Source: Sphingosinicella sp. LHD-64 (GTDB lineage: Bacteria > Pseudomonadota > Alphaproteobacteria > Sphingomonadales > Sphingomonadaceae). Taken from it: a DNA stretch of 64,000 nucleotides. How positions within the stretch are numbered: position 1 is the first letter of the stretch; every line of letters begins with the position of its first letter. The notes under the pieces are model-generated. The model worked only from the letters and a program-made list of their open reading frames with translations, was not told the DNA's origin and did no database searches. Made by a program: the position numbers and the translations under genes. The stretch is from assembly GCF_031157375.1 (NCBI RefSeq), contig NZ_JAVIFV010000001.1:1116001-1180000 (forward strand), in the 5' to 3' direction. This document shows positions 49,916 through 64,000 of the stretch, piece after piece.

Positions 49916-50049
49916 CCTCAAGTCTCCACTGTTCGAGGGTACCTTGCGGCGCCCGTCCTAACCCTGCCTGAACGACGCCCGCCGGACGCGCCGGCCGGCG
50001 CATCGCCATGGCGCTCCTTACCGATGCCCGCCGCGAAGGGAAAGACCCC

Positions 50050-50904
50050 TCACTTGGCGCGGTAGGTCTGGTCGGCGGTCGGAAAGGCACGGCGGCGCAC
50101 CTCGTCGGCATAGGCTGCGGCCGCGGCGCCGACCCGCGTCGCGAGGTCGTCATAACGCTTCACGAAGCGCGGCGTGCGCTCGAACATGCCCAGCATGTCG
50201 TCGATCACCAGGATCTGCCCGTCGCACTCGGCCGAGGCGCCGATGCCGATCACCGGGCAGGAGACCGCGGCCGTCACTTCGTTGGCCACGGTCTCGATCA
50301 CGCCCTCGACGACGATCGAGAAGGCGCCGGCGGCGGCGATCGCCCTGGCGTCGTCGATGATCTGGGCATGCTCGGCATTGCCCTTGCCGCGCGCGCCATA
50401 GCCGCCGAGCGCGTTCACCGCCTGCGGCGTCAGCCCGACATGGCCGATCACCGGGATGCCGCGCGCGGTGAGGAAGGCGACCGTCTCCGCCATCGCTTCG
50501 CCGCCCTCCAGCTTTACCGCCGCGCAGCCGGTTTCCTTGAGCACGCGCGACGCGCTCTCGAACGCCTGGGCCGGGCTCGCCTCGTAGGCGCCGAACGGCA
50601 TGTCGACCGCGACCAGCGCGTGCCATGAGCCGCGCACCACCGCCGCGCCATGCGCGCACATCATGTCGAGGCTGACCGGGATGGTCGACGGCAGGCCGTA
50701 GATCACCTGCCCCAGGCTGTCGCCGACGAGCAGCAGGTCGCAATGCGGATCGAGCAATTGCGCCATCCGCATCGTGTAGGCGGTGAGCGCGACGATCGGC
50801 TCCTTGCCCTTGCGGTCGCGGAGCGCCGGCACGGTGAGCCGCTTCATCGGCGCCGGGCTCGGCGTCGCGCGGCTCGTCGCGGTGTCGATCGTATAGGTGG
50901 ACAT
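50050..50904 (-). CDS. panB: 3-methyl-2-oxobutanoate hydroxymethyltransferase
   Basis: 284 residues, TIM-barrel. Motifs are [27 protein letters not shown] with the metal-binding Asp, PFGAYEASP and [16 protein letters not shown]; the catalytic Glu lies in VVEGVIE. It transfers a hydroxymethyl group from methylene-tetrahydrofolate to ketoisovalerate, the first step of pantothenate synthesis. It starts 40 bases after trpA and may be read from the trp transcript. Confidence 0.95.
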
Positions 50905-50943
50905 GAAGGCGAGGCTTAGTCGATCCGGCGCAAGCTGGCAAAG

Positions 50944-51744
50944 CTATGCCGCCTCCCTGATCCGCGTCGCTTCCTTCATCGCCGCGATGAACGCCCGCAG
51001 CGCGGGAAGCGGATCGGCGTGCTTGGCGAGCAGGTCGACGATCGCCGAACCGCAGATCACCCCCGCGGCGCCTGCCGCCAGCGCCGCGCGGACATGCTCC
51101 GGCCGCGAGATGCCGAAACCGAAGACCGGCGGCGGCGCATTGTTCGTCAGGAGCGCATCCAGCATATCGGCATGATCGAACTCCGCCGCGCGGTCGGCGC
51201 CGGTCACCCCGGCCCGCGCCACGCAATAGGTGTAGCCGCCGCCCCGCCGCGCGATCGCCGCCAGCCGCTCGGGCGGGGTGTTGGCGGCGGCGATCAGCAC
51301 CGGATCGAGCCCGTGCAGCCGGGCCGAAGATGCGAAGGGCTCCGCCTCCAGCAGCGGCACGTCGGCGACCAGCACGCTGTCGGCGCCCGCCGCCGCGGCC
51401 CTCGCATAGAAGGCGTCGCGGCCGCGTGCGACGACGAGATTGGCGTAGGTGAGGATGCCCACTGGCACGTTCGGGTGGCGCGCCCGGAAGCCGGCGATGA
51501 GATCGAAGCAATCCGCCGGCGTCACGCCCTTGGCGAGCGCACGGGTCGCCGCCGCCTGGATGACCGGCCCGTCGGCGACGGGATCGGAGAAGGGAATGCC
51601 GACCTCGATCATGTCCGCCCCGCCCTCGACCAGCGCATCGAGGATCGCTGCGGACCGGGCAAGATCCGGATCGCCGAGCATGATGAAGGCGCCGAACGCC
51701 CCCTCCCCGCTTAGCCGGTCGAACATCGTCGCGTAGCGGCTCAT
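50944..51744 (-). CDS. trpA: Tryptophan synthase alpha subunit
   Basis: 266 residues. The alpha-subunit signature GGADMIEVGIPFSDPVADGP contains the catalytic Glu and Asp; GGGYTYCVARAGVTG is the flexible loop 6 region. It cleaves indole-glycerol phosphate and channels indole to TrpB. The ATG at 51744 overlaps the trpB stop (TAATG). Confidence 0.96.
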   Translation of the reverse strand: MSRYATMFDRLSGEGAFGAFIMLGDPDLARSAAILDALVEGGADMIEVGIPFSDPVADGPVIQAAATRALAKGVTPADCFDLIAGFRARHPNVPVGILTYANLVVARGRDAFYARAAAAGADSVLVADVPLLEAEPFASSARLHGLDPVLIAAANTPPERLAAIARRGGGYTYCVARAGVTGADRAAEFDHADMLDALLTNNAPPPVFGFGISRPEHVRAALAAGAAGVICGSAIVDLLAKHADPLPALRAFIAAMKEATRIREAA

Positions 51745-52916
51745 TACGGCAACTCCAGCAGGCGCTGCGCCTGTTCCATGTCCTTGTCCCCGCGCCCGGA
51801 GAGGTTGACGACCAGCACCGGATTGTCGGTCGCCGCCTCGGCCAGCTTCAGTGCGTGCGCCAGCGCATGGGCCGATTCGAAGGCGCAGATGATCCCCTCG
51901 CCCGCGGCGAGCGCCTGGAAGGCGGCGAGCGCCTCCGCATCCGTCGCGCCGACATATTCCGCGCGGCCGCTGTCCCTGAGATGGGCGTGCTCCGGCCCGA
52001 CCGCGGGATAGTCGAGGCCCGCCGATACCGACCAACTCTCGCTGATCTGCCCGTCCGCATCCTGCAGTACGTAGGTCTCCGCCCCGTGCAGGATACCGGG
52101 CCGGCCGCGCAGCAGGGTCGCGCCGTGCTGGTCGCCGTCCAACCCCTTGCCGGCCGGCTCGACTCCGATCAGCTTCACCTCGGCGTCGGGCGCGAAATCC
52201 GCGAAGATGCCCATCGCGTTCGAGCCGCCGCCGACGCAGGCGATCACCGCGTCTGGCAACCGGCCTTCCTCGTCCAGAATCTGCGCCCGCGCCTCCTCGC
52301 CGATCACCCGCTGGAAATCGCGCACGATCGTCGGGAACGGATGCGGTCCTGCTACGGTGCCGAGCAGATAGTGGGTGTCGGCGAAGCTCGCCGTCCAGTC
52401 GCGCAACGCCTCGTTGATCGCATCCTTGAGCCCGCGCTGCCCGCTTTCCACGGGAACCACCTCGGCGCCCATCAGCCGCATCCGGAACACGTTGAGCTTC
52501 TGCCGCTCGACGTCATGCGCGCCCATGTAGATGCAGGTCCTGAGCCCGAACAACGCCCCGGCGAGCGCCGTCGCCACGCCATGCTGGCCGGCGCCAGTCT
52601 CGGCGATCAGCCGGGTCTTGCCCATCCGCCGGGCGAGCAGTGCCTGCCCCAGCACCTGATTGGTCTTGTGCGCCCCACCATGAAGCAGGTCCTCGCGCTT
52701 CAGGTAGATGCACGCCCTGCCCGTACCGAGGTTGCGGCAACGGGTCAGCGGCGTCGGCCGTCCGGCATATTTGCGCAGCAGCGTGTCGAGTTCGACGCGG
52801 AAGCCGGGATCGTCCTGCGCGTCGATGAAGGCCGCATCGAGCTCCTCCAGCGCGGGCACCAGGATTTCCGGCACATAGGCGCCGCCATAGGCGCCGAACC
52901 GGCCGCGATTCAGCAT
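51744..52916 (-). CDS. trpB: Tryptophan synthase beta subunit
   Basis: 390 residues. The PLP lysine is in the HKTNQVLG motif (about residue 85), and the phosphate loop is GGGSNAMG. It joins indole and serine to form tryptophan. The ATG at 52916 overlaps the trpCF stop by seven bases. The length and sequence are those of the standard TrpB1 type. Confidence 0.97.
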
Positions 52917-54322
52917 GGCGCGATCTCCCCGCGCACCGCCGGCCGCAGCGCCCCGAAAAAGGCTGCGAGCTTGCCCGCGTCCTTGACGCCCGGCGCGCTT
53001 TCGACACCCGAGCTGACATCCAGCGCCCAGGCGCCGACCTTCGACGCTGCGGCGGCATTGTCCGGATTGAGACCGCCGGCCAGAAGGCCCGATTCCAGGT
53101 CCTCACGTCCATGCACGCGCGCCCAATCGAACGCGACGCCGGTCCCGCCGGAGCGGCCCGCCACTTGGGTGTCGAAGATCGTCCGATCGGCATTCATCCG
53201 CGGCGCCGGCACGTCCCGACCCACCGCGCCAGCCGCCCACACCTCGACGCCCTCCGGCAGCGAATTCTTGAGCCCGGCGATATAGTCGCCATCCTCCTCG
53301 CCATGGAGCTGGACCGTATCGAGTTCGAGCACCCGCGCCGTCCGTGCCACCTGCATCAGCTTCTCGTTCCGGAACACGCCGACCGTCTCCAACCCGCGCG
53401 CCTTCGCCGCCGCAACCGCCGGCTCGGCCTCAGCCGTTGTCACCGCGCGCGGCGTGCCGGGCACCAGGATGGCACCGGCATAGCTCGCGCCCGCCTTCGC
53501 CGCCGCCTCGACGCTCGCCGTGTCGCGCAGCCCGCAGACCTTCACCCGCCCGAAGGCGAGCGCCCGTGCGGCCTGCGCCGGGCTGGGCGCACGCATCAGC
53601 GACGAACCGACCAGGAAAGCATCGGCAAAAGGCGCCAGCCGCTCGACATCGGCGCGGTCGGCGATCCCCGATTCGGCGACGAGCACACGGTCCCCGGGTA
53701 CCAGATGGGCAAGCCGCTCGGTGGTGGCGAGATCGACCTCGAGCGTCCGCAAATCCCGGTTGTTGATGCCGATGACCGGCGCGCCGAGCGCGACCGCGCG
53801 GCGCAGTTCGGTCTCGTCATGCGCCTCGACCAGCGCATCCATCCCCAGGACTTCAGCCTCGCGCAGCACCTCGGCCGCCTCTGCGTCGTCGAGCACCGAG
53901 AGCATCACCAGCACCGCATCGGCGCCGGCCAGCCGCGCCTCGACCACCTGGCGCGGATCGATCACGAAATCCTTGGCAAGGATCGGTCCGTCGAACACCC
54001 GCCGCACCGCGCGAAGGTCGTCGAGCGAGCCGCCGAAGAACGGCGCGTCGGTGAGCACGCTGATCGCCGAGGCGGCGCCGGCATAGGCGCACGCGATCCC
54101 TGCCGGATCGGCATCCGGCCGGATCGCCCCGCCGGAGGGCGATGCCTTCTTGACCTCCATGACGAAACGGGCACCCTTCTGTCCAAGCACCTGCTTCAGG
54201 CTCCGCCGCGTCGGCTCCGCTCGGCCGCGCAGGTCGCCGATCAAGGCCGCACCGAGCCGGGCGGCGACATCACGCCGCTTGAGGGCGAGAATCTCGCCGA
54301 GAACGCCGCCGGGTTCACGCAT
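52910..54322 (-). CDS. trpCF: Fused indole-glycerol-phosphate synthase / phosphoribosylanthranilate isomerase
   Basis: 470 residues comprising two TIM-barrels. Residues about 1-258 are TrpC, with [13 protein letters not shown] carrying the first catalytic Lys and [11 protein letters not shown] near the end. From about 262 the TrpF domain begins with KVCGLRD (catalytic Cys) and ends LDVSSGVE, with [10 protein letters not shown] between. The two are joined without a linker of any length, in the order of the Escherichia coli TrpC protein. Most alphaproteobacteria carry separate trpC and trpF. The ATG at 54322 overlaps the trpD stop by eight bases. Confidence 0.94.
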
Positions 54323-55382
54323 GGGTCGTGACTTCGGCGAGACGCTTGAGCCGCTCGAACGGCGCGCCGGACGCGATCGTGCGCAGCGCCAGCGCGACGC
54401 CACTGCGCAAATCCTCGGCCAGACCCGCCGTCATCAGCAACGCGCCGGCATTGAGCGCGACCGCATGGGTTTCCGCAACCTCCCCGCGCCCGGTGAGCAG
54501 CGCCGTCAACCGTGCTGCATTCTCCTCGGGCCCGCCGCCGCTGAGCGCCGAAAGCGGCGCCCGTCGTAGATTGGCGTCCTCCGGCGCGAAGGTGAAACGC
54601 TCCAACCGGCCGTCATCGACCCGCACCGCCTCGGTCGCCTCGTGCAGCGCCACCTCGTCGAGGCCGCCGCCATGGACGACCATCGCCCGCCGGACGCCGA
54701 GCGCCACCAGCACCTCGGCGACCGGCTGCAGCAACCCGCCATCGGCGACGCCGAGCAGCTGCACCGGCGGCTCGGCCGGGTTCACGCAGGGGCCGAGCAC
54801 GTTCATGATCGTGCGCACCTTGAGCGCGCGCCGCACCGGCCCGGCATGGCGCAGGCCCGGATGATAGTCCGGCGCGAACAGGAAGCAGACGCCCGCCTCG
54901 TCGAGCGCGCGGCGCGAGGTTTCGGCCGGCACGCTCAGTTGCACGCCCAGAAACTCCAGCACGTCGGCCGAACCGCAGCGCGAGGTGACCGATCGGTTGC
55001 CATGCTTCGCCACCGGCAGCCCCGCCGCCGCTGATACGAAGGCGACCGCCGTCGACAGGTTGATCGTGCCCGAACCGTCGCCGCCGGTGCCGCAGCTGTC
55101 GGCGAAGAGATAGTCCGGCCGCGCGAACGGCAGGTCGGCGGCGCGCAGCGCGCGGGCCGCGCCGATCAGCTCGTCGGCGGTCTCGCCCTTCACCTTGAGC
55201 GCGACCAGCAACGCCGCGATCGACGGTTCGGAGAGCTGGCCGGCGACAAGCGCGCCGAACAGCTGCTCGGCCTCGCCTTGCGAGAGCGAGCGGCCGGCGA
55301 AGAGGCTACTGAGCGCCTCCTCGACCGGATCGGCGGCGGGAAGCGGGTCGATCTGGAGCGCGGGGGCGGCGGTCATGTACAT
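54315..55382 (-). CDS. trpD: Anthranilate phosphoribosyltransferase
   Basis: 355 residues. The PRPP-binding region is DSCGTGGDGSGTINLST, followed by KHGNRSVTSRCGSADVLE. It joins anthranilate and PRPP. It is the first structural gene of the operon; trpE and trpG are not adjacent. AGGA seven bases upstream supports the ATG at 55382, though the ATG at 55376 is close by. Its expression is expected to depend on the attenuator at 55416-55442. Confidence 0.95.
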   Translation of the reverse strand: MYMTAAPALQIDPLPAADPVEEALSSLFAGRSLSQGEAEQLFGALVAGQLSEPSIAALLVALKVKGETADELIGAARALRAADLPFARPDYLFADSCGTGGDGSGTINLSTAVAFVSAAAGLPVAKHGNRSVTSRCGSADVLEFLGVQLSVPAETSRRALDEAGVCFLFAPDYHPGLRHAGPVRRALKVRTIMNVLGPCVNPAEPPVQLLGVADGGLLQPVAEVLVALGVRRAMVVHGGGLDEVALHEATEAVRVDDGRLERFTFAPEDANLRRAPLSALSGGGPEENAARLTALLTGRGEVAETHAVALNAGALLMTAGLAEDLRSGVALALRTIASGAPFERLKRLAEVTTHA

Positions 55383-55415
55383 GGCGTGGTCCTGTCAGGC
55401 TGGGGTTGGGCGCAA

Positions 55416-55442
55416 GAAAAAGCCCGCCGGAAGCGGCGGGCT
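55416..55442 (-). terminator. trp attenuator terminator
   Basis: On the minus strand the stem AGCCCGCCG / CGGCGGGCT closes a four-base loop and runs into TTTTT. It lies between the leader peptide stop and trpD. An alternative hairpin at 55468-55482 (GGCTCT / AGAGCC) sits directly after the leader stop codon and could act as the pause or antiterminating structure. Confidence 0.88.
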
Positions 55443-55483
55443 CTGTGGTCTTCGAGTGGGGACTTGGGGCTCTTAGAGAGCCG

Positions 55484-55600
55484 TCACCATCGATACAGGC
55501 GCGCCGCGGCGGGATCGCTCCACCACCAACGCCATGCATGCGCCGCCGCAGCCGCCGGACGGGCGGTCAGGTCACCGAAACGGGACGCGGTCGCGTTCAT
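55484..55600 (-). CDS. trpL: trp operon leader peptide
   Basis: 38 codons. Residues 23-27 are WRWWW and the last residue is again Trp, five Trp in a peptide this short. The stop codon is 42 bases upstream of a strong intrinsic terminator that precedes trpD. This is the classical arrangement for ribosome-mediated attenuation: when charged tRNA-Trp is scarce the ribosome stalls on the WWW codons and the terminator cannot form. The long N-terminal part before the Trp cluster (22 residues) and the missing ribosome site are unusual. In Sinorhizobium the trpL message is leaderless and its product acts in trans, which may be relevant here. Confidence 0.85.
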   Translation of the reverse strand: MNATASRFGDLTARPAAAAAHAWRWWWSDPAAARLYRW

Positions 55601-55607
55601 GCCCTTA

Positions 55608-55636
55608 TGATTTCCGATTTCACTGCGCCGCGTCAA
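55608..55636 (-). promoter_or_regulatory. Candidate trp operon promoter
   Basis: TTGACG on the minus strand (55636-55631) lies just past the stop codon of the upstream gene. A 17-base spacer leads to AAATCA (55613-55608). Transcription would then begin within a few bases of the trpL ATG at 55600. Confidence 0.5.
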
Positions 55637-55638
55637 CC

Positions 55639-57837
55639 CTATTTCACGATCAGGAGCTGCGCATCGCCTTCGCGGTGGACGACGGCGGTGGTCACGTCCG
55701 CACCGACCCGCGACAGCGACAGGTCCAGCCGCGAGCCCGCCACCCGCACGCCGCCGAGCGACAGATGGTCGATGAAGGCGGGCAGGCTGGGATTGTGGAG
55801 CAGCACGCAATTGTTGGCGTCGTCGAGCGTCAGGCCGGTCGCCGCGGCGACCAGCGCGAAGGGCGCCGCGGCGGCCCAGGCCTGGGGCGAGCAGGCGACC
55901 GGATAGGCGGTCGGGCCGCGCTTGCGCCGCCGGGTAAAGCCGCAGAACAGCTCCGGCAGGCGCCGGAACTCGTCATAGATCGCCGCCTCGATCAGCCCCT
56001 GGAAGATCCTCAGCACCGCGTCCTTGTGACCGTAACGCGCCAGGCCGAGCGCGATCAGCGCGTTGTCGTGCGGCCAGACCGAACCGTTGTGATAGGACAT
56101 CGGATTGTAGCGCGCCTCGCCCTGCGCGATCGTGCGCACGCCCCAGCCCGAGAAGAAGTCCCGCCCGGTGAACAGCCGCGCCATCCGCGCTGCGCGCTCC
56201 GGATCGGCGATCCCGGCGAACAGCGCGTGACCGGCATTGGAGGAGCGCACGCGACAGGGCTGCTTGCGCCCGTCGAGCGCCAGCGCATAGCAGCCCAGCT
56301 CATCGACCCAGAACCGGTCCTCGAAGCGCTGCTGCAGCACCTCGGCCTCTTCCGCCAGGCTGTGCGCCAGGTCCGCCTCGCCGAGCGCTTGGGCGATTCC
56401 CGCCGCGCCGCGCTTGGCGGCAAACACATAGGCCTGCACCTCGCAAAGCGCGATCGGCCCTTCGGCGGCGCGGCCGTCGGCATGGAAGACCGAATCGAAG
56501 CTGTCCTTCCAGCCCTGGTTGGCAAGACCCCGGTCGGTCATCCGGGCATATTCGATGAAGCCGTCGCCGTCGATGTCGCCCCATCGGTCGATCCAGCCCA
56601 GGGCCGCGTGCAGGTTCGGCCAGATCTCGCGGATCGTCGCCAGGTCGCCCGAACGGTCCAAGTAGAGCCCGGCGAGCAGGACGAAAAGCGGCGTCGAATC
56701 GACCGAGCCGTAATAGCGGCGGAACGGCACCTCGCCGAGCATCGCCATCTCGCCGCCGCGCATCTCGTGGAGGATCTTGCCGGGCTGCGCGTCCGCCGCC
56801 TCGTCCACCTCGGTCGCCTGGGTCAGCGCGAGCGCCTTCAGCACGCCCTTGGCGATGTCCGGCGCGATCCACAGCAGCTCGATCGCGGTGATCAGTCCGT
56901 CGCGGCCGAAGATGGTGCTGTACCAGGGAACACCCGCATAGGGGTACAAGCCGTAGGGCGTCTCGGTCAGCAGCATGTCGATGTCGGAGACCGAGCGGTC
57001 GATCACCGTGTCGAAGAGTTCGTTGGAGCTGGCCACCCCGCCCTGCCGCTCGACCCGGTCGCGGCTCGCCTGCCGCACCGCGCGATAGGCGGGAATGAGC
57101 TCGGGCAGGTCGAGCTGATCCTCGCCATCCAGGCCGCAGATGGTCTTCATCACCACGTGGAGCCGCTCGGTTTCTGAGAAATCGAGGTCCCATCGGGCAC
57201 CCCGCGCGGTCAGCTCTTCCGGCGGCGGATCGAACTGGACGGTGGCAGTGCGTATCACCGCATCGAGGCCGTAATAGGTGAAGCGGACGCGGCGGTCGTC
57301 CAGCCGCTCGGTGGTGAGGCTCCCGCGCCGCGCGCGGATCTCGCCGCGCACCTCGAACAGGTCGGCGAAGTCCGAACCGAAGGCGATCTCGAACGGGATC
57401 GGGTGCGGGATCGGGTTGAACCGCCGCAGCCGGAAGCGCTCGTAGCAGGTGCAGTCGTGCAGGAACTTCAGGCGCCCCAGATGGATGCTATCGCGCTGCA
57501 GCCGAACATGGCCCTCGGCGTCATGCAGGTCGGCATTTGCGAGGTCGACGACCAGCGCGCCATTGTCGTCGAGCACGACCGAGCCGAGCAGCAGCGGGTC
57601 CATCCCGCCGAGCTTCACCTGGAGGTGCGAGAGGAACCGCGTGTCCCGATAGAACAGGCCGTCCGGCCCACCCTCGCCGCCACGGCAATCGCCCTGCTTG
57701 TCGAACACGCCGAACAGGTCGCCCTGCTTCAGGGTCCTCAGCGTCCGCTCGACGAGCGATTTGGTCGCCTCGATATGATAGCTCTCGAGGGCCGGCGGCG
57801 CGCCGGTCCAGCCGGCCTTGAGGGCGATCTCGTTCAT
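55639..57837 (-). CDS. Amylo-alpha-1,6-glucosidase family protein (MGH1-type)
   Basis: 732 residues. An N-terminal beta-sandwich (about 35-260, with GGPDGLFYRDTRFLSHLQV) is followed by an (alpha/alpha)6 barrel. The barrel has YPYAGVPWYSTIFGRDGLIT and NQGWKDSFDSVFHADG, and a later SYHNGSVWPHDNAL. These are the conserved acidic-residue regions of glycogen-debranching-enzyme-like GH63/GH133-related proteins widespread in soil bacteria. The exact substrate is not known. Its start overlaps the glycosyltransferase stop as ATGA, so both act in one pathway, perhaps trehalose- or glucan-related. Confidence 0.85.
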   Translation of the reverse strand: MNEIALKAGWTGAPPALESYHIEATKSLVERTLRTLKQGDLFGVFDKQGDCRGGEGGPDGLFYRDTRFLSHLQVKLGGMDPLLLGSVVLDDNGALVVDLANADLHDAEGHVRLQRDSIHLGRLKFLHDCTCYERFRLRRFNPIPHPIPFEIAFGSDFADLFEVRGEIRARRGSLTTERLDDRRVRFTYYGLDAVIRTATVQFDPPPEELTARGARWDLDFSETERLHVVMKTICGLDGEDQLDLPELIPAYRAVRQASRDRVERQGGVASSNELFDTVIDRSVSDIDMLLTETPYGLYPYAGVPWYSTIFGRDGLITAIELLWIAPDIAKGVLKALALTQATEVDEAADAQPGKILHEMRGGEMAMLGEVPFRRYYGSVDSTPLFVLLAGLYLDRSGDLATIREIWPNLHAALGWIDRWGDIDGDGFIEYARMTDRGLANQGWKDSFDSVFHADGRAAEGPIALCEVQAYVFAAKRGAAGIAQALGEADLAHSLAEEAEVLQQRFEDRFWVDELGCYALALDGRKQPCRVRSSNAGHALFAGIADPERAARMARLFTGRDFFSGWGVRTIAQGEARYNPMSYHNGSVWPHDNALIALGLARYGHKDAVLRIFQGLIEAAIYDEFRRLPELFCGFTRRRKRGPTAYPVACSPQAWAAAAPFALVAAATGLTLDDANNCVLLHNPSLPAFIDHLSLGGVRVAGSRLDLSLSRVGADVTTAVVHREGDAQLLIVK

Positions 57838-58898
57838 GCCGCCACGGTCATCGAGTCTCCGAACAGGGCGCCGCGCGTGTCGGCACCGAGAGCCTGATAG
57901 AGCGCGACATAGTCTCGCGCCATGCGATCGGCGGTGAAGCGTTCCTCGAACGCGGTCCGCACGAGCCTGCGCGACAGCGAGGCCGCCGCATCGACCGCAG
58001 CCACCGCCTCGTCGATGCTCTCGACCAGGAAGCCGCTGCGGCCATGCTCGATCACCTCGGGCGTGGAGCCGTTGCGCCAGGCGATGACCGGCGTCCCCGC
58101 CGCCATCGCCTCGATCATCACCAGCCCGAACGGCTCCGGCCAGTCGATCGGGAAAAGCAGCGCGCGCGCATTGCCGAGGAAGTCCGGTTTCTCCGCATCG
58201 CCGATCTCGCCGATGAATTCGACCGCCGGATCGTCCAGCAGCGGCTTGATCCGCTCCTCGAAATAGGCGGTGTCCGCGCGATCGACCTTGGCGGCGATCT
58301 TCAGCTTCATGCCCGCACGGCGCGCGATCTCGATGGCGCGGTCGGGGCGCTTCTCGGGCGATATGCGCCCGATGAAGGCGAGATAGTCGCCGGCGCCCTC
58401 GCCGAACGGGATCAGGTTCCGGGGCATGCCGTGGTGCACCGTGCTGACGAAGTTCGCATGGGCGATGGGGAGGCGCTGGTTGTCCGAGATCGACACCAGG
58501 TTCATCTCGGGAAAGGTCCGGTAGGCCGGCCAGAAATCGGGAAAGTCCTGCCGCCCGTGCAGCGTGGTGAGGCATTTGCCCGTCATGTGCCGGAACGTCG
58601 GGAAGTGGAGGAAATCGATGTGGAAATGGAGGATGTCGAAATCGTCGGCGCGGACGAGGACGCGATCGAGCATCGCGAGCAGGCTGGCCAGGTGATCGTT
58701 GATTCCGCTCAGCCTCAGGCCAGTCGGGGCGCAGGGAACGAGCCGGGCCGAGGTGACCGAATCGCCGGCGGCGAACAATGTGACGTCATGGCCCTGGTCG
58801 ACCAAAGCCTCGGTGAGCCACCAGATGACCCGCTCGGTGCCGCCATAGAGCTTCGGCGGTACGGCTTCCGCCAGCGGCGCGATATGGGCGATGCGCAC
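57834..58898 (-). CDS. GT4-family glycosyltransferase
   Basis: 354 residues, GT-B fold. The N-terminus has IAPLAEAVPPKLYGGTERV, the glycine-rich loop of GT4 enzymes; the C-terminal domain shows FIGRISPEKRPDRAIEIA and the nucleotide-sugar motif EPFGLVMIEAMAAGTPVIA. It would transfer a sugar from a nucleotide donor; donor and acceptor are unknown. The GTG at 58898 has AGGAGGG upstream. It is translationally coupled to the debranching-enzyme-like gene. Confidence 0.88.
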   Translation of the reverse strand: MRIAHIAPLAEAVPPKLYGGTERVIWWLTEALVDQGHDVTLFAAGDSVTSARLVPCAPTGLRLSGINDHLASLLAMLDRVLVRADDFDILHFHIDFLHFPTFRHMTGKCLTTLHGRQDFPDFWPAYRTFPEMNLVSISDNQRLPIAHANFVSTVHHGMPRNLIPFGEGAGDYLAFIGRISPEKRPDRAIEIARRAGMKLKIAAKVDRADTAYFEERIKPLLDDPAVEFIGEIGDAEKPDFLGNARALLFPIDWPEPFGLVMIEAMAAGTPVIAWRNGSTPEVIEHGRSGFLVESIDEAVAAVDAAASLSRRLVRTAFEERFTADRMARDYVALYQALGADTRGALFGDSMTVAA

Positions 58899-59020
58899 AA
58901 GACCCTCCTTCGAAACGCGCCTGACGGGAGCCGGGCGGCTCGCCACCGGGAAAGAACGAAGCGTCTCGGGAGCGGGTTCCGCGAAACCTTGCTGCAATGC
59001 ACAACGATCGTCAAGGACAA

Positions 59021-59689
59021 TCAGGAATAGAAAATATGCAGCCCGATCTGCGTGTTGCGCTCCAGCCGCCGGCCCCAGCCGGGCGCCACATAATTGGCAT
59101 GGTACCAGAGCACGTCGCGCGGCAGCAGCCGCAACTCGCCGGCCTGCGCGATCCGCGCCACTGCGACCGCGCGGCGCCACGCGGAGGTCCGCCGGTCGGC
59201 GCGGGGAATGACGCCGCGGCGCACGAAGGAGAATTGCCAGGGCTGGGTGACGACGGCGCAGATGGTGATCGGATAGAGGCCGGACCGGGTGCGGTTCAGC
59301 ACCACCTCGGCGACGGCGAGTTGGCCTTCGAGCGGTTCGCCCTGCGCTTCGAAATAGACGGCGCTGGCAAGGCAGTCCTGCTCGGCATTGGCAGTTTCGA
59401 CGCCCTCATGCTCCTCCACCAGTTCGGGGAGCGGCGGCGCCGGCAGCTCGTCCGGTACCTGCGAGAGATGGACGGCGAGACGGGCATCGTCGCCCGCCGG
59501 GTCGGCCGGCGTCTCGTCGTTGAGTCCGAGCTCGGTGATGTCCGCGCCCGTCGTCGCATGGGCGAGATAGGAGGTGACCGCGGCCGGCGGGGCATCGCCC
59601 TGCCAGGCGCTCAATGGCCCGCCCCAGAGCAGGGCCGCAAGGCCGAACGCCGCCGCGGCAAGCCCCGCGGCGCGAAACGATCGCTGCAT
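59021..59689 (-). CDS. SleB-type cell wall hydrolase
   Basis: 222 residues. An uncleaved or cleaved signal (hydrophobic about 6-27) is followed by an acidic linker and the Hydrolase_2 domain starting at CLASAVYFEAQGEPLEGQ, which holds the likely catalytic glutamate, and LAVAEVVLNR. The end of the domain has a Trp/Tyr-rich region with RLLPRDVLWYHANYV. The family cleaves peptidoglycan glycan strands; outside spore-formers it is common in alphaproteobacteria. The ATG at 59689 is used; no strong ribosome site is visible. Confidence 0.85.
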   Translation of the reverse strand: MQRSFRAAGLAAAAFGLAALLWGGPLSAWQGDAPPAAVTSYLAHATTGADITELGLNDETPADPAGDDARLAVHLSQVPDELPAPPLPELVEEHEGVETANAEQDCLASAVYFEAQGEPLEGQLAVAEVVLNRTRSGLYPITICAVVTQPWQFSFVRRGVIPRADRRTSAWRRAVAVARIAQAGELRLLPRDVLWYHANYVAPGWGRRLERNTQIGLHIFYS

Positions 59690-59905
59690 TATATCCGCAT
59701 CCAGTGCGGCGGGCGGTCCCCATTCGGATGCGCTCCACGCACCCGGTCCATACGCTCGCCGACTTGCACCGGCCACTCCGCACTGCGTCAGCGGCACCCG
59801 CTCGTTGAAACTGTTGGCGTGGACCTGTCCACCGGTGTCCGCAGAGTCAAATGTTATGCTGCAGTGCAACGATGAATCGAGCCAGGGCCGGGGCGAACCG
59901 TGGAA

Positions 59906-60415
59906 CTACGGTAGCGTGTTGCCCTCCGCAGGGACCTGATGCGTCACGCCGGAGACCAGCCGGACCCGCGCGCTCGGAACCCAGCCGGCCGCGCACGGCC
60001 CCGGATAGGCGCGCCGGCGCGGCACCGGCGCCGAGACGCCGCAGCGCGCCGCCGCCTCACCGCCCGAATCGTAGACGATGCCGAACCAGCGCTGGTCCTG
60101 GCTGCGCGCGCAGATGAAGAATTCGGCGCCGGCTTCGAGATAGTCGATCTCCTCATTGGCCTCGAACGGCGCGGCGCGGACCGGCACCGCCTCCGCGCTG
60201 CTGCGCTCACGTACCGCGCCCCGCGCGTTGCAGGCGGCGAAGTTCGGGCCGAGTTCGCCGATCCGGACCGGCATCACCGTATCGCGCAGCACCGTCTCAT
60301 TGTCGGCGGCGCGGACATAGGGCGGGGTGGTCGATCCCTGCACGTTCGGATCCGGCGCCCGCTCGCCGCACCCGGCGAGCAGCAAGGCCGCCACGAGTCC
60401 AAGTTGAGCCTTCAT
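59906..60415 (-). CDS. Lipoprotein of unknown function, SH3-like
   Basis: 169 residues. The lipobox LLLAGC places the lipidated cysteine at 16. The body has the pattern MPVRIGELGPNFAACNARG and EEIDYLEAGAEFFICARS, similar to an SH3-like periplasmic domain, with four to five cysteines that may form disulfides. No partner is known. It is divergent from the EVE gene across 51 bases. Confidence 0.7.
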   Translation of the reverse strand: MKAQLGLVAALLLAGCGERAPDPNVQGSTTPPYVRAADNETVLRDTVMPVRIGELGPNFAACNARGAVRERSSAEAVPVRAAPFEANEEIDYLEAGAEFFICARSQDQRWFGIVYDSGGEAAARCGVSAPVPRRRAYPGPCAAGWVPSARVRLVSGVTHQVPAEGNTLP

Positions 60416-60466
60416 CGCCTCTGGTCTAGTCAATCGCCCGAGCGAACGCGAGTGGGAGCCGATGCG

Positions 60467-60865
60467 ATGGCCAAATGGCTGATGAAGTCCGAACCCGAGG
60501 TTTACAGCTGGGACGACCTCAGTCGGGACAAAGCGACCGACTGGGACGGGGTCCGCAACAATGCCGCCCGCCTGCATCTGCGCGCGATGAAGCCCGGCGA
60601 CCAGGCGTTCTTCTACCATTCGGGCGACGTGAAGGCGGTGGTCGGGATCATGAAGGTCACCGGCGCGGGCAAGCCGGACGGCGAGGACGGCGCCTGGGTC
60701 AAGGTCCCGGTCGCGCCGGTGAAGCCGCTCAATCCCGTCACCCTCAAGGACATCAAGGCCGAGCCGAAGCTTGCTGAGATGGAGCTGGTCCGCCAGTCCC
60801 GTCTCTCCGTCTCGCCGGTGCGCGACGAGGAATGGGCGCTGGTGCTGAAGATGGCCGGAGCCTGA
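60467..60865 (+). CDS. EVE domain protein
   Basis: 132 residues, the whole length of a bacterial EVE protein. It opens with WLMKSEPEVYSWDDL and contains RNNAARLHLRAMKPGDQAFFYHS, the two strongest signatures of the domain. EVE is a PUA-like fold thought to bind modified bases in RNA or DNA. GGGAG precedes the ATG at 60467. Confidence 0.93.
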   Translation: MAKWLMKSEPEVYSWDDLSRDKATDWDGVRNNAARLHLRAMKPGDQAFFYHSGDVKAVVGIMKVTGAGKPDGEDGAWVKVPVAPVKPLNPVTLKDIKAEPKLAEMELVRQSRLSVSPVRDEEWALVLKMAGA

Positions 60866-60867
60866 GC

Positions 60868-61179
60868 GTGGGCGGGCTCGGCCGCCTCGCTCTCGTTGCG
60901 GCGCTGGCTGTGGCCGCCGCGGCGCCTGTCCTGTCCCAATCGCGGCCGGCGCGCTGGCATCTGACACCGGACGGTTACGGCCCGGTCAGGATCGGCATGA
61001 CCCGCGCCCAGGTCGAGCGGGCGCTCGCCGTGCGCCTGCGCGGCACGCCGCTGGAGGAGGGTCCGGACGCCTGCATCCAGATGTCCGCCGTGCGCGGTTT
61101 TCCCGGCCTCAGCTTCATGTTCGAGGCGCGGCGCCTCACCCGCATCTCCGCCATCCAATATATCGAGGGCTGCGCCTAG
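60868..61179 (+). CDS. Small exported protein of unknown function
   Basis: 103 residues from a GTG two bases after the EVE stop. A signal peptide (hydrophobic 6-20, cleavage near VLSQ) precedes a short domain with LTPDGYGPVRIGMTRAQVE, a pattern seen in small periplasmic proteins, and two cysteines that could pair. Co-translation with the EVE gene is likely. No function can be assigned. Confidence 0.65.
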   Translation: MGGLGRLALVAALAVAAAAPVLSQSRPARWHLTPDGYGPVRIGMTRAQVERALAVRLRGTPLEEGPDACIQMSAVRGFPGLSFMFEARRLTRISAIQYIEGCA

Positions 61180-61272
61180 GACTATTCCGCTTCGCTGGCG
61201 CACATGCCAGCGAGATGCGTCAGCCGGCCGATCATGACGAGAGTCATGTGACAGCGACCCCGTTGCCGCGTA

Positions 61273-62448
61273 ATGTCCGGGCTCAGGAGCGAACGATCGG
61301 TGCGCATGTCGGACCCACCGGCCCGGGGAACATTGCTCGTGCAGATCGGCTGCACGATGCTGATCGCCGCCGCGGGCTTGCGGGCCTATTGCGCGGGCGC
61401 GATCGACCACGCGCCGCTCACGCAAGCTCCGAACTGGGCGCTCAACTGGACGGCTGGCTACCTGGTCTTCATCGCCGCTTATTCGGGCTCTCATCTGCGC
61501 GCCGCCGGGGCGGGGACACGCATCGCCCTGCTCCTCATCCAGAGCCTGTCGGCGACCTATCTTCTGTGGCTCTATCCCAATTTCATCGTCACGGTTCTGT
61601 TCGTGGTCACCGCCTGGCGGATCGCCTGGACGCTCCCCCTTGGCCCCGCATTGGGCGCGATCGCGGTCCAATCCGCTGTTCTTGCCGGCCTCAAATATCT
61701 GGGACCGGCTCAGGAGATGTCGCCGCTCGTCCTGGTGACCACCGGCGCATTCGAGCTGTTCGCGGTCAGCGTCGCCCATCTCGCCCGGAACGAGACCGTG
61801 GCGAAGGAGCAGCTGGAGCGGACCAATGCGCAGCTCCGCACGACCCAGGCCTTCCTCACCGAGAACGCGCAGATGGCCGAGCGCCTGCGCCTGTCGCGCG
61901 ACCTCCATGATGCACTTGGCCACAACCTTACCAGCCTCGCCATCCGCCTCGACGTCGCGGGCCGCATGGCGCGCGGCGAGGCGGGAGATCATATCCGCAC
62001 GGCACGCCGTCTCGCCTCCGGTCTCCTCGACGACGTTCGTGACGTGGTCGCAAACGCACGCGTCGCGCCGGTCGACCTCAAGGCCCGTCTCGTTGCGATC
62101 GTCGCGGCGGTCGATACGCTCGACGTGCGCCTCAACTTTTCTGGCGCATTGAGCGCGGTCGACGGTTCGAGGGCCGATGTGATCATCCGCTGCGTTCAGG
62201 AGCTGATCACCAACGCCTAGCGCCATGCCGGGGCCAGCGAGCTCGTCATCGACATCAGCCAGGCCGGCAGCGAGCTCCAGGTCGCCGCCAGAGACAATGG
62301 TCGCGGTGGCGAGGTCGTCGAGGGTCGGGGATTGACCGGGATGCGCGAGCGCTTCGAGCTTCTGGGCGGTCGGTTCCGCCACGTCACCGTGCCGGGCAAG
62401 GGCTTCGGCATCTATGCCGCCGTTCCGTCCCTTGGGAGCCGGGCATGA
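61273..62448 (+). pseudogene. NarL-type sensor histidine kinase interrupted by an amber codon
   Basis: The frame encodes five or six membrane helices (about 20-175), a HisKA_3 dimerisation domain with the phosphoacceptor His212 in SRDLHDALGHNL, and the start of an HATPase domain. At 62218-62220 a TAG falls in the N-box, between ELITNA and RHAGASELV. The same frame then continues undisturbed through DNGRGG and GLTGMRERFELLGG to a TGA at 62448 that overlaps the regulator ATG as ATGA. Length and overlap show the ancestral gene was complete (391 sense codons or so). Without readthrough the product lacks ATP binding. The start could also be the ATG at 61306. Confidence 0.85.
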
Positions 62449-63083
62449 TCCGCGTCTGCCTGGCCGACGATCAGGCGCTCGTGCGCAACGGCATCGGCGC
62501 CCTGCTTAGATTCTTCGATGACATCGATGTCGTCGCCGAGGCCGAGGATGGCGATGCTGCGATCGAGGCCGTGCTGCGCCATTCGTGCGACGTTCTCCTT
62601 CTCGACATCCGCATGCCGGGCAAAAACGGGCTGCAAGTGATCGACGTGCTCGCGGGGCGCGATGCGTTGCCCCCCACCCTCCTCCTGACGACGTTTCAGG
62701 ACGATGCGGTGCTGGTGGCCGGAATCCGGGCCGGGGCCCGCGGCTTCCTGCTCAAGGGGGTCACGGCCGAGATCCTGGTCGATGCCATCAGGACGCTCGC
62801 CACCGGCGGTACCTATCTGTTCGCGCCGCTGGCGGCGGCCCCGGCGCCCGACGGCAAGGCGAGCTGGCGCGATGACATGCTCGATTGCCCCGACCCGCTC
62901 ACCACACGCGAGCGCGACGTGCTGACGCTGATGACGAGCGGAATCTCCAACGCCGAGATCGCCCGGGCGCTTTCGCTGCGGGAGGGGACGGTTCGCAACC
63001 ATGTGTCCAACATTCTCTCGAAGCTGGGCGTCGGCGATCGGACCAAAGCCGTGCTGGTGGCGCTTGAGCGCCGCCTTGCCTGA
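62445..63083 (+). CDS. NarL/LuxR-type response regulator
   Basis: 212 residues. The receiver domain has the acidic pair DD at 8-9, the phosphoacceptor Asp54 in LLLDIRMPG and Lys at about 104 in FLLKG. The LuxR-type helix-turn-helix has LTTRERDVLTLMTSG, NAEIARALSLREGTV and VSNILSKLGVGDRTKA. It is the partner of the kinase immediately upstream, whose stop it overlaps. With the kinase truncated it may be inactive, cross-regulated or phosphorylated by small-molecule donors. Confidence 0.94.
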   Translation: MIRVCLADDQALVRNGIGALLRFFDDIDVVAEAEDGDAAIEAVLRHSCDVLLLDIRMPGKNGLQVIDVLAGRDALPPTLLLTTFQDDAVLVAGIRAGARGFLLKGVTAEILVDAIRTLATGGTYLFAPLAAAPAPDGKASWRDDMLDCPDPLTTRERDVLTLMTSGISNAEIARALSLREGTVRNHVSNILSKLGVGDRTKAVLVALERRLA

Positions 63084-63110
63084 AGTGCCTTCGAGCGACT
63101 CTCGCTATGA

Positions 63111-63653
63111 TCAGGACGGCGATGACGGGTCCGCGCCGACCCGAGTCCATGTGCCGTCGCGCCGAACAAACGCGCCGTTGTCGGTGTGCCAGCCCACGTC
63201 GATCCATCGCCCGTCGCGGCGGACGAATATTTCGGTGCCGCGCCCCGAAAACGTCCCGGACCTCTCGGCGGTGGCGGTTCCGAAGACATAGGTGAAGTAG
63301 AGTATGGCCACGTCCCCGAAGATCTGAATCTCGGTTCGCGGGAACTCCAGTCGCGTGATTCGCGTCCCTTGCCGCTGCATGCCGCGCGCCAGGGCGATCA
63401 GCTGATCCCGATTCTCCCAGTTTTCCTGATGCGGCTGGATCGCGATCACTTCCGGGCCCAGCAACCGTTCCAGCCGAGCCGGATCATCGCTGAAGAAGCT
63501 GCGCCACGCGGTTTCGCGGGCGACGAGGAGTTCCGCGCGCTGTTCACCGGTGACCGCAACAGACTCCATCCTCGATGAAGCGGTCTCGCTGTCTCCGCTC
63601 ATCTGCAGGAGCCCCGCACCAAGCAAGGCCATGGCCGTCACGAAATTCCGCAT
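63111..63653 (-). CDS. Exported NTF2-like (DUF4440) protein
   Basis: 180 residues. A hydrophobic N-terminus (about 4-18) suggests export. The NTF2-like core is visible in LLVARETAWRSFFSDDPARL and the strands ending DGRWIDVGWHTDNG. GGGAG seven bases before the ATG at 63653 supports the start. It is convergent with the response regulator gene. The ligand is unknown. Confidence 0.78.
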   Translation of the reverse strand: MRNFVTAMALLGAGLLQMSGDSETASSRMESVAVTGEQRAELLVARETAWRSFFSDDPARLERLLGPEVIAIQPHQENWENRDQLIALARGMQRQGTRITRLEFPRTEIQIFGDVAILYFTYVFGTATAERSGTFSGRGTEIFVRRDGRWIDVGWHTDNGAFVRRDGTWTRVGADPSSPS

Positions 63654-63911
63654 GCGTCTCTCCCGAGCCTTGCGAATTTGACTGCCGCAGATCGGACGGT
63701 CGCACGAAGATTGCCTCCCGGGATCGGTCCCGGCCAGTGACCACAGTCATGATGTCGTCACCTGAATCAATGATGGTGACTCGCAGAACTGCATTTCCGT
63801 TCGCAACGGGCACTCCAAGACACAGCATCGGCAGGGCTTCGGTATGGATGACAGCCTCGCGCGGCGTCCTTAGACTCGGATGGACTCGCACTGAAAACAA
63901 GGGAGGCTGCA

Positions 63912-64000
63912 ATGAAGATCGTGACGAGCCTGAGTTTCCAAGGCCAGTGCCGCGAGGCGTTCGAGTTCTACGCCAGGGTTTTGGGCGGCAAGATCACCGC
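63912..64000 (+). CDS. VOC-superfamily (PhnB-like) protein, 5' end only
   Basis: Twenty-nine codons before the window ends. The N-terminus MKIVTSLSFQGQCREAFEFY followed by ARVLGGKIT is typical of PhnB/YjdN-type members of the VOC (glyoxalase fold) superfamily. GGGAGG precedes the ATG. The 258 bases between it and the NTF2-like gene show no coding sequence and should contain both divergent promoters. Confidence 0.8.
   Translation, partial: MKIVTSLSFQGQCREAFEFYARVLGGKIT

Follow-up and report, generated by a model that had tools for sequence, protein, structure and literature searches.

A ribosome-mediated tryptophan attenuator very probably governs the trpD-trpCF-trpB-trpA unit in the 64-kb window, by which we mean the whole stretch of 64,000 nucleotides that was analysed. 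With it, the trpD half of the tryptophan pathway would very probably be switched on only when Trp is scarce, and each half of the pathway carries a predicted sensor of its own. The attenuator model is based on sequence, conservation, in silico folding and gene content; from these we infer Trp-dependent readthrough, the transcription start site and the order of evolutionary events. The features of the locus, in the direction of transcription, are as follows.

55636-55631, minus strand: promoter-like site TTGACG, starting 2 nt past the preceding gene's stop codon
55612-55607, minus strand: AATCAT, the best available -10-like match, weak, with a spacer of 18 bases from TTGACG
55600-55484, minus strand: leader ORF of 38 codons plus stop (ATG at 55600, UGA at 55486-55484), sense codons MNATASRFGDLTARPAAAAAHAWRWWWSDPAAARLYRW
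55534-55520, minus strand: WRWWW, codons 23-27 of the leader ORF
55507-55502, minus strand: GCGGCG (codons 32-33), predicted strand 2 of the antiterminator from ribosome-masked folding, its GCGG invariant in a 20-row alignment
55489-55487, minus strand: final leader codon, Trp
55482-55468, minus strand: small post-stop hairpin GGCTCT-CTA-AGAGCC, predicted tip of the antiterminator
55444-55419, minus strand: intrinsic terminator with an 11-bp stem, AGAGCCCGCCG-CTTC-CGGCGGGCTTT (5' arm 55444-55434, 3' arm 55429-55419)
55421-55417, minus strand: T-run TTTTT, the terminator end
54315..55382, minus strand: trpD, ATG at 55382, TIGR01245 over its cut-off (Pfam/NCBIfam)
52910..54325, minus strand: trpCF fusion, NF006945 over its cut-off (coordinates of the stretch that was profile-scanned; the listed frame opens at 54403)
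51744..52916, minus strand: trpB, TIGR00263 over its cut-off
50944..51747, minus strand: trpA, TIGR00262 over its cut-off
50050-50904, minus strand: panB, 39 nt downstream of trpA

The 38-codon frame with WRWWW and a terminal Trp named in the original prediction is present at 55600-55484, followed on the same strand by the hairpin after the stop, the T-run terminator and trpD, all as described; 101 nt separate the end of the leader ORF from the start of trpD. TTGACG is there as well; the proposed 17-base spacer would place AAATCA at the -10 position, and the best -10 match lies at 18 bases. No other frame in the window packs four or more Trp into five codons, and no other promoter-like match occurs in 55000-56200, where 0.1 would be expected. 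The leader RNA folds with a z value of -2.43, equalled by 3 of 200 shuffles. The upstream neighbour is a glycogen-debranching-enzyme-like gene on the minus strand, whose stop codon, with its last base at 55639, lies 39 nt ahead of the leader. On the downstream side, panB lies on the same strand as trpA and may share its message; the trpA-panB adjacency also occurs in locus L077.

The proposed switch was modelled by folding leaders with a ribosome stalled at the Trp cluster, with a ribosome at the stop codon, or with none, the RNA being hidden as far as 13 nt downstream of the first base in the A site. This was possible for 63 of 65 leaders (44 of trpD, 19 of aroF); the trpD leader of L006 and the aroF leader of L112 were dropped, as the script saw no terminator in them. 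In the leader of the window, a stall at the Trp cluster frees GCGGCG (55507-55502), whose partner CGCCGC (55438-55433) lies in the 5' arm of the terminator. Their pairing is predicted to build an extended, imperfect stem capped by the post-stop hairpin. Shuffled controls were needed because a longer stretch of free RNA pairs more in any case. Against these, the antiterminator of the window reached -12.0 kcal/mol compared to -3.4 ± 1.7 (0 of 40 shuffles as strong), and mean z values were -1.75 over the 44 trpD leaders and -2.25 over the 19 aroF leaders; single-leader values were modest, and one leader in each set was worse than its own shuffles (L059, L109). Moving the ribosome to the stop reduced the median gain from -7.6 to -0.9 for trpD leaders and from -9.1 to -2.1 for aroF leaders. 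Pairing of the terminator 5' arm was higher at the stall than at the stop by more than 0.1 in 43/44 trpD and 17/19 aroF leaders, and the reverse never occurred.

In the full leader RNA of the window at equilibrium, the terminator prevails when the ribosome occupies the last W of the cluster (0.93) and yields when it occupies the first (0.01). Without a ribosome, the whole RNA folds with the terminator (0.95). When the ribosome-free RNA is cut before strand 4, the 5' arm pairs upstream instead (0.75; mean of 0.63 over the trpD leaders). Given these equilibrium folds and the ribosome-free antiterminator, the switch would have to act during transcription. A protecting hairpin, one that would force termination when the leader goes untranslated, did not emerge clearly from the folds. 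An alignment of 20 leaders agrees with the pairing, in that GCGG and the terminator core are invariant. The same automatic 20-row alignment contained no double compensating changes, and its consensus fold consisted of the terminator and a three-pair stem.

Taken alone, the post-stop hairpin is weak (5 of 100 shuffles equally strong). Across 45 trpD leaders its mean energy was -5.3 against -4.2 for shuffles, with few individual leaders standing out, and it was rejected as an independent element; in the folding models it fits better as the antiterminator tip. The final Trp codon lies within the antiterminator stem and is therefore probably not the inducing stall site; a ribosome paused on it would be expected to promote termination.

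The following sequence of events can be proposed from these folds. Transcription would start at or just before the AUG of the leader. With ample Trp-tRNA, the ribosome would reach the UGA and cover strand 2 (55507-55502), so that the terminator at 55444-55419 stops transcription. With scarce Trp-tRNA, it would stall at WRWWW and leave strand 2 free to zip over the post-stop hairpin onto the CGCCGC of the terminator 5' arm, and RNA polymerase would continue into trpD.

The original prediction had pointed to the leader of relatives as a check on attenuation, and the claim of attenuation is well supported by both conservation and folding. The genus of the window comprises 26 genomes in our collection, 20 of which have readable DNA upstream of trpD (in G284 and G275 the contig ends before this region). 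All 20 carry a Trp leader with a terminator before trpD, counting the leaders of L087, L089 and L097, which were outside the hits of the first scan and were read separately. A terminal Trp is found in 19 of the 20; the frame of L094 is shifted. In the same genus, aroF was detected at high score in 20 of 26 genomes, and each of these 20 has a Trp leader before it (18/20 in a narrower scan). A second genus of the same family (g77; 71 genomes, 67 with a TrpD match) has the leader before trpD in 38 of 51 loci (25 of 31 plus 13 of a further 20) and before aroF in 23 of 23. Among the 13 trpD loci in which the scan found no leader, 11 have trpG directly upstream, that is, an unbroken aroF-trpE-G-D-CF-B-A operon, and the other two, in G226 (L232) and G234 (L229), retain a degenerate leader. 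Both of these still lie before trpD, with most of the Trp cluster lost and one terminator changed.

A leader-like call was defined as a short W..W frame followed by a hairpin ending in a T-run, and such a call arose once in 400 background tiles. Outside the two genera but within the family, the scan gave hits at 1/25 trpD, 0/20 trpG and 1/16 trpE loci, and in other Alphaproteobacteria at 0/24 trpD and 1/4 trpE loci, all these comparison genomes having been selected among the best TrpD matches and not by random sampling. The hits from within the family do not resemble leaders. The hit in locus L207, VFCGAVWRLWTL, might be a real leader.

Where the message starts was addressed through promoter spacing. 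TTGAC lies 34-41 nt before an in-frame ATG or GTG in 45/45 trpD leaders (0.8 with permuted motifs) and in 12/20 aroF leaders (0 with permuted motifs), with at least one match probably due to chance (L083, where it falls inside the frame). From this spacing, the start is predicted about 0-6 nt before the start codon of the leader. Shine-Dalgarno-like words 5-16 nt before the chosen start occur in 14/45 trpD leaders, in 0/20 aroF leaders and in 31/61 structural genes, and several relatives start their leaders with GTG. A nearly leaderless message, as originally proposed, is a prediction with which the promoter spacing of the 45 trpD leaders is consistent. Alternatively, transcription could start well upstream and the leader could be translated from an ordinary ribosome site, which we consider unlikely but worth keeping in view. 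The 14 trpD leaders with a Shine-Dalgarno-like word speak for an upstream start, as do the GTG starts of some relatives, GTG being a poor start codon in leaderless messages of Escherichia coli, and the leader frame of the window, which extends upstream without a stop as far as a TTG at 55810. TTGAC at the stated spacing in all trpD and most aroF leaders argues against it, together with the lack of Shine-Dalgarno-like words in the 20 aroF leaders compared to about half of the structural genes.

The remaining part of the pathway is encoded elsewhere in the same genome, which contains two chorismate-binding proteins. One of them is TrpE, with a DAHP synthase gene before it, TrpG after it and a score past the NF010079 cut-off; the other, longer and with a second domain, is taken for PabB. 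The DAHP synthase gene is presumably aroF, a name we assigned from its sequence. The aroF-trpE-trpG unit lies at ~1.036-1.039 Mb on contig 1, ~0.136 Mb from the trpD leader on the same contig (~1.1716 Mb), and aroF is preceded by a Trp leader, MTDGFSLPTSSHAAAWWRWQAICAPVWRWSSSL*, and its own terminator. Since aroF-trpE-trpG lies elsewhere with its own Trp leader, the pathway operon is split, with an attenuator on each half. The absence of trpE and trpG from an operon attenuated separately, as originally described, is thus borne out and extends to a second leader on the missing half.

As to the origin of the operon, full-length TrpD of the two genera, outside the closest genomes, is 56-66% identical to that of the window, and among the matches listed, that of other family members is 40-48% identical. 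A rapidly built tree of 75 TrpD sequences places both genera beside Kangiella, a single Endozoicomonas record and two proteobacterial MAGs (SH-aLRT 96), and joins other genera of the family to an alphaproteobacterial row (SH-aLRT 96); gammaproteobacteria are sparsely represented in it, and the residue make-up of the Kangiella rows was flagged as odd. The gene order of Kangiella is aroF-trpE-G-D-CF-B-A, and this order, including aroF, and the trpCF fusion are common to the two genera. Gene order, fusion and tree together suggest horizontal acquisition of a Kangiella-like operon, so the trpD unit would be the second half of a pathway operon that was probably acquired horizontally and split later. 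It is rather improbable that the operon is instead old in the two genera and was replaced in the other genera of the family, with no acquisition at all. That account gains from the sparse sampling of gammaproteobacteria, the speed of the tree and the flagged Kangiella rows, and it is opposed by the SH-aLRT of 96 for either grouping and by the presence of the same aroF-containing order and trpCF fusion in Kangiella.

Acquisition followed by breakage is how we read the forms that the operon takes among relatives, which are the following.

Intact, uninterrupted from aroF to trpD and led only at aroF: nine loci
Contiguous, the gap from trpG to trpD containing a leader: L084, L089 and L037
Divergent units, with a leader on each: L005
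Split, each half led: the genome of the window
The trpD unit alone

In L005 (G053, ~960-1460), the aroF-trpE unit and the trpD unit are divergently arranged; their two Trp leaders and two terminators point in opposite directions, from starts ~120 nt apart.

The reduced form was followed in 47 genomes, chosen for high completeness or for missing aroF. TrpE was found in 23; in the other 24, a search with the trpE family gave shorter matches of 202-257 bits in 16 and none in 8; the curated cut-off of this family is also missed by the TrpE of the window's genome. Nineteen of these 24 genomes have trpD, and 18 of the 19 keep the leader, that of the remaining one, G234, being degenerate. Three trpE-less genomes of the second genus (G145, G221 and G266; 3 of its 38 led trpD loci) have a trpD leader that is closest to an aroF leader, the case being weakest for G221 (70 vs 46). 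Such aroF-type leaders before trpD are as expected if aroF-trpE-trpG had been deleted. High completeness (99-100%) also singles out five genomes with neither a TrpD match nor TrpE, namely G129 and G186 in the genus of the window and G207, G209 and G216 in the second genus; TrpB is absent from G129 and G186 as well. By gene content, these five are probable Trp auxotrophs.

How a trpD unit might be fed without anthranilate synthase was examined through kynureninase (TIGR01814). In the second genus, it occurs in 12/15 genomes with trpD but without trpE (G236 falls below the cut-off) and in 1/23 with trpE (Fisher p 2.8e-6, 37 genomes), an association that is not significant in a paired test on the tree, with ~2 informative independent pairs. 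In the genus of the window, all tested genomes have kynureninase, whether trpE-less (4/4) or trpE-bearing (12/12), and there is therefore no link to trpE loss there. Tryptophan dioxygenase (PF03301) is present in 30/30 genomes and does not discriminate. The kynureninase gene of G258 is solitary and follows a gene for dCTP deaminase. Kynurenine may thus supply the anthranilate in place of anthranilate synthase in trpE-less genomes. A tentative reading of the whole series, which seems possible to us, is one leader per transcription unit: the attenuator module would follow every break of the acquired operon, standing before aroF where the operon is intact, appearing as an own-promoter leader at the trpG/trpD cut or before detached trpD, and being kept after loss of aroF-trpE-trpG, when the trpE-less trpD unit may use kynurenine-derived anthranilate.

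The original prediction also allowed the released leader RNA targets of its own, which a crude duplex test did not support. We doubt that the main product is a leader RNA or peptide released to act in trans in the manner of rnTrpL/peTrpL of Sinorhizobium meliloti, for which PMC7298713 provides the precedent. The aroF leader without its terminator paired with the trpCF start and with panB more strongly than any of 60 shuffles; as the test comprised 32 comparisons and unrealistic full-length duplexes, these two cases prove little. The sole such case for the trpD leader was its own downstream region, and with cis attenuators on both trp halves a link in trans is not needed.

It is barely credible that hairpin and T-run merely terminate the glycogen-debranching-enzyme-like gene, which shares the strand and stops 39 nt short of the leader, and that the Trp-rich frame arose by chance, for although terminators are common, the leader and its terminator recur before trpD in every readable genome of the genus and again before aroF, persist whatever the upstream neighbour (the divergent aroF unit in L005, trpG in L084 and L089), and contrast with a background of one call in 400 tiles. 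Conservation in relatives thus rules out a chance ORF beside an ordinary terminator.

Among known systems, the leader resembles the ribosome-mediated trp attenuator (trpL): a short ORF containing tandem Trp codons is combined with an antiterminator and a terminator that exclude each other, ahead of trp genes. Its clustered-Trp ORF lies directly before trp biosynthesis genes, an intrinsic terminator lies between this ORF and the first gene, and in silico an exclusive antiterminator is free at a Trp stall and hidden at the stop; apart from the protecting hairpin, the modelled leader would work like such an attenuator. Unlike trpL, it precedes trpD, and a second leader is found on the other half. 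The Rfam model RF00513 (Trp_leader) gave no match in 50000-64000 of the window up to E 5, nor in L001 or L034, and the leader is not a member of this model. Of eight related loci, the best reached 38.5 bits, in Kangiella, and the second genus got to 33.7, both short of the gathering score of 41; nothing exceeded a gathering score of Rfam in the stretches scanned. As these leaders score below the current model, such attenuators are probably missed in annotation.

A search of the attenuator literature, covering few subscription journals, turned up no article dealing with Trp leaders from Sphingomonadales or Kangiella. The comparative study of attenuators in proteobacteria by Vitreschak and colleagues (2004) may contain some of these findings. 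The mechanism is known; we describe new members of it, and neither these members nor the twin leaders nor the range of operon forms came up in the literature searched.

Kangiella, which supplies some of the nearest named relatives by TrpD from beyond the order, shares the gene order aroF-trpEGDCFBA and Trp leaders before aroF. Unlike in the genome of the window, its operon is unsplit and has two tandem leaders (6/6 loci). In these loci (L134-L139), the tandem leaders, each with a terminator, lie ~100-300 nt before aroF, the second leader of L135, L136 and L139 having been read by eye. A pair of attenuators for the same amino acid is thereby placed one behind the other; in Salmonella, mgtCBR is a known case of tandem attenuators.

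A genome with two attenuated trp units has also been predicted in Corynebacterium diphtheriae, with candidate attenuators before both trp operons, trpB1EDGC and trpB2A (PMC1262725). That species differs in phylum and in the split of its genes, and our related genomes display one operon whole, led internally, split and reduced. Detachment deprives genes of a regulator that acts in cis, and since all these forms exist among relatives, the regain of cis-control by detached genes is directly testable. A parallel within the Alphaproteobacteria is S. meliloti, which likewise has trp genes in more than one operon and a leader message starting at the AUG (PMC7298713), as predicted here. There, the detached trpDC is controlled in trans by rnTrpL, whereas the detached half studied here has a putative cis attenuator of its own.
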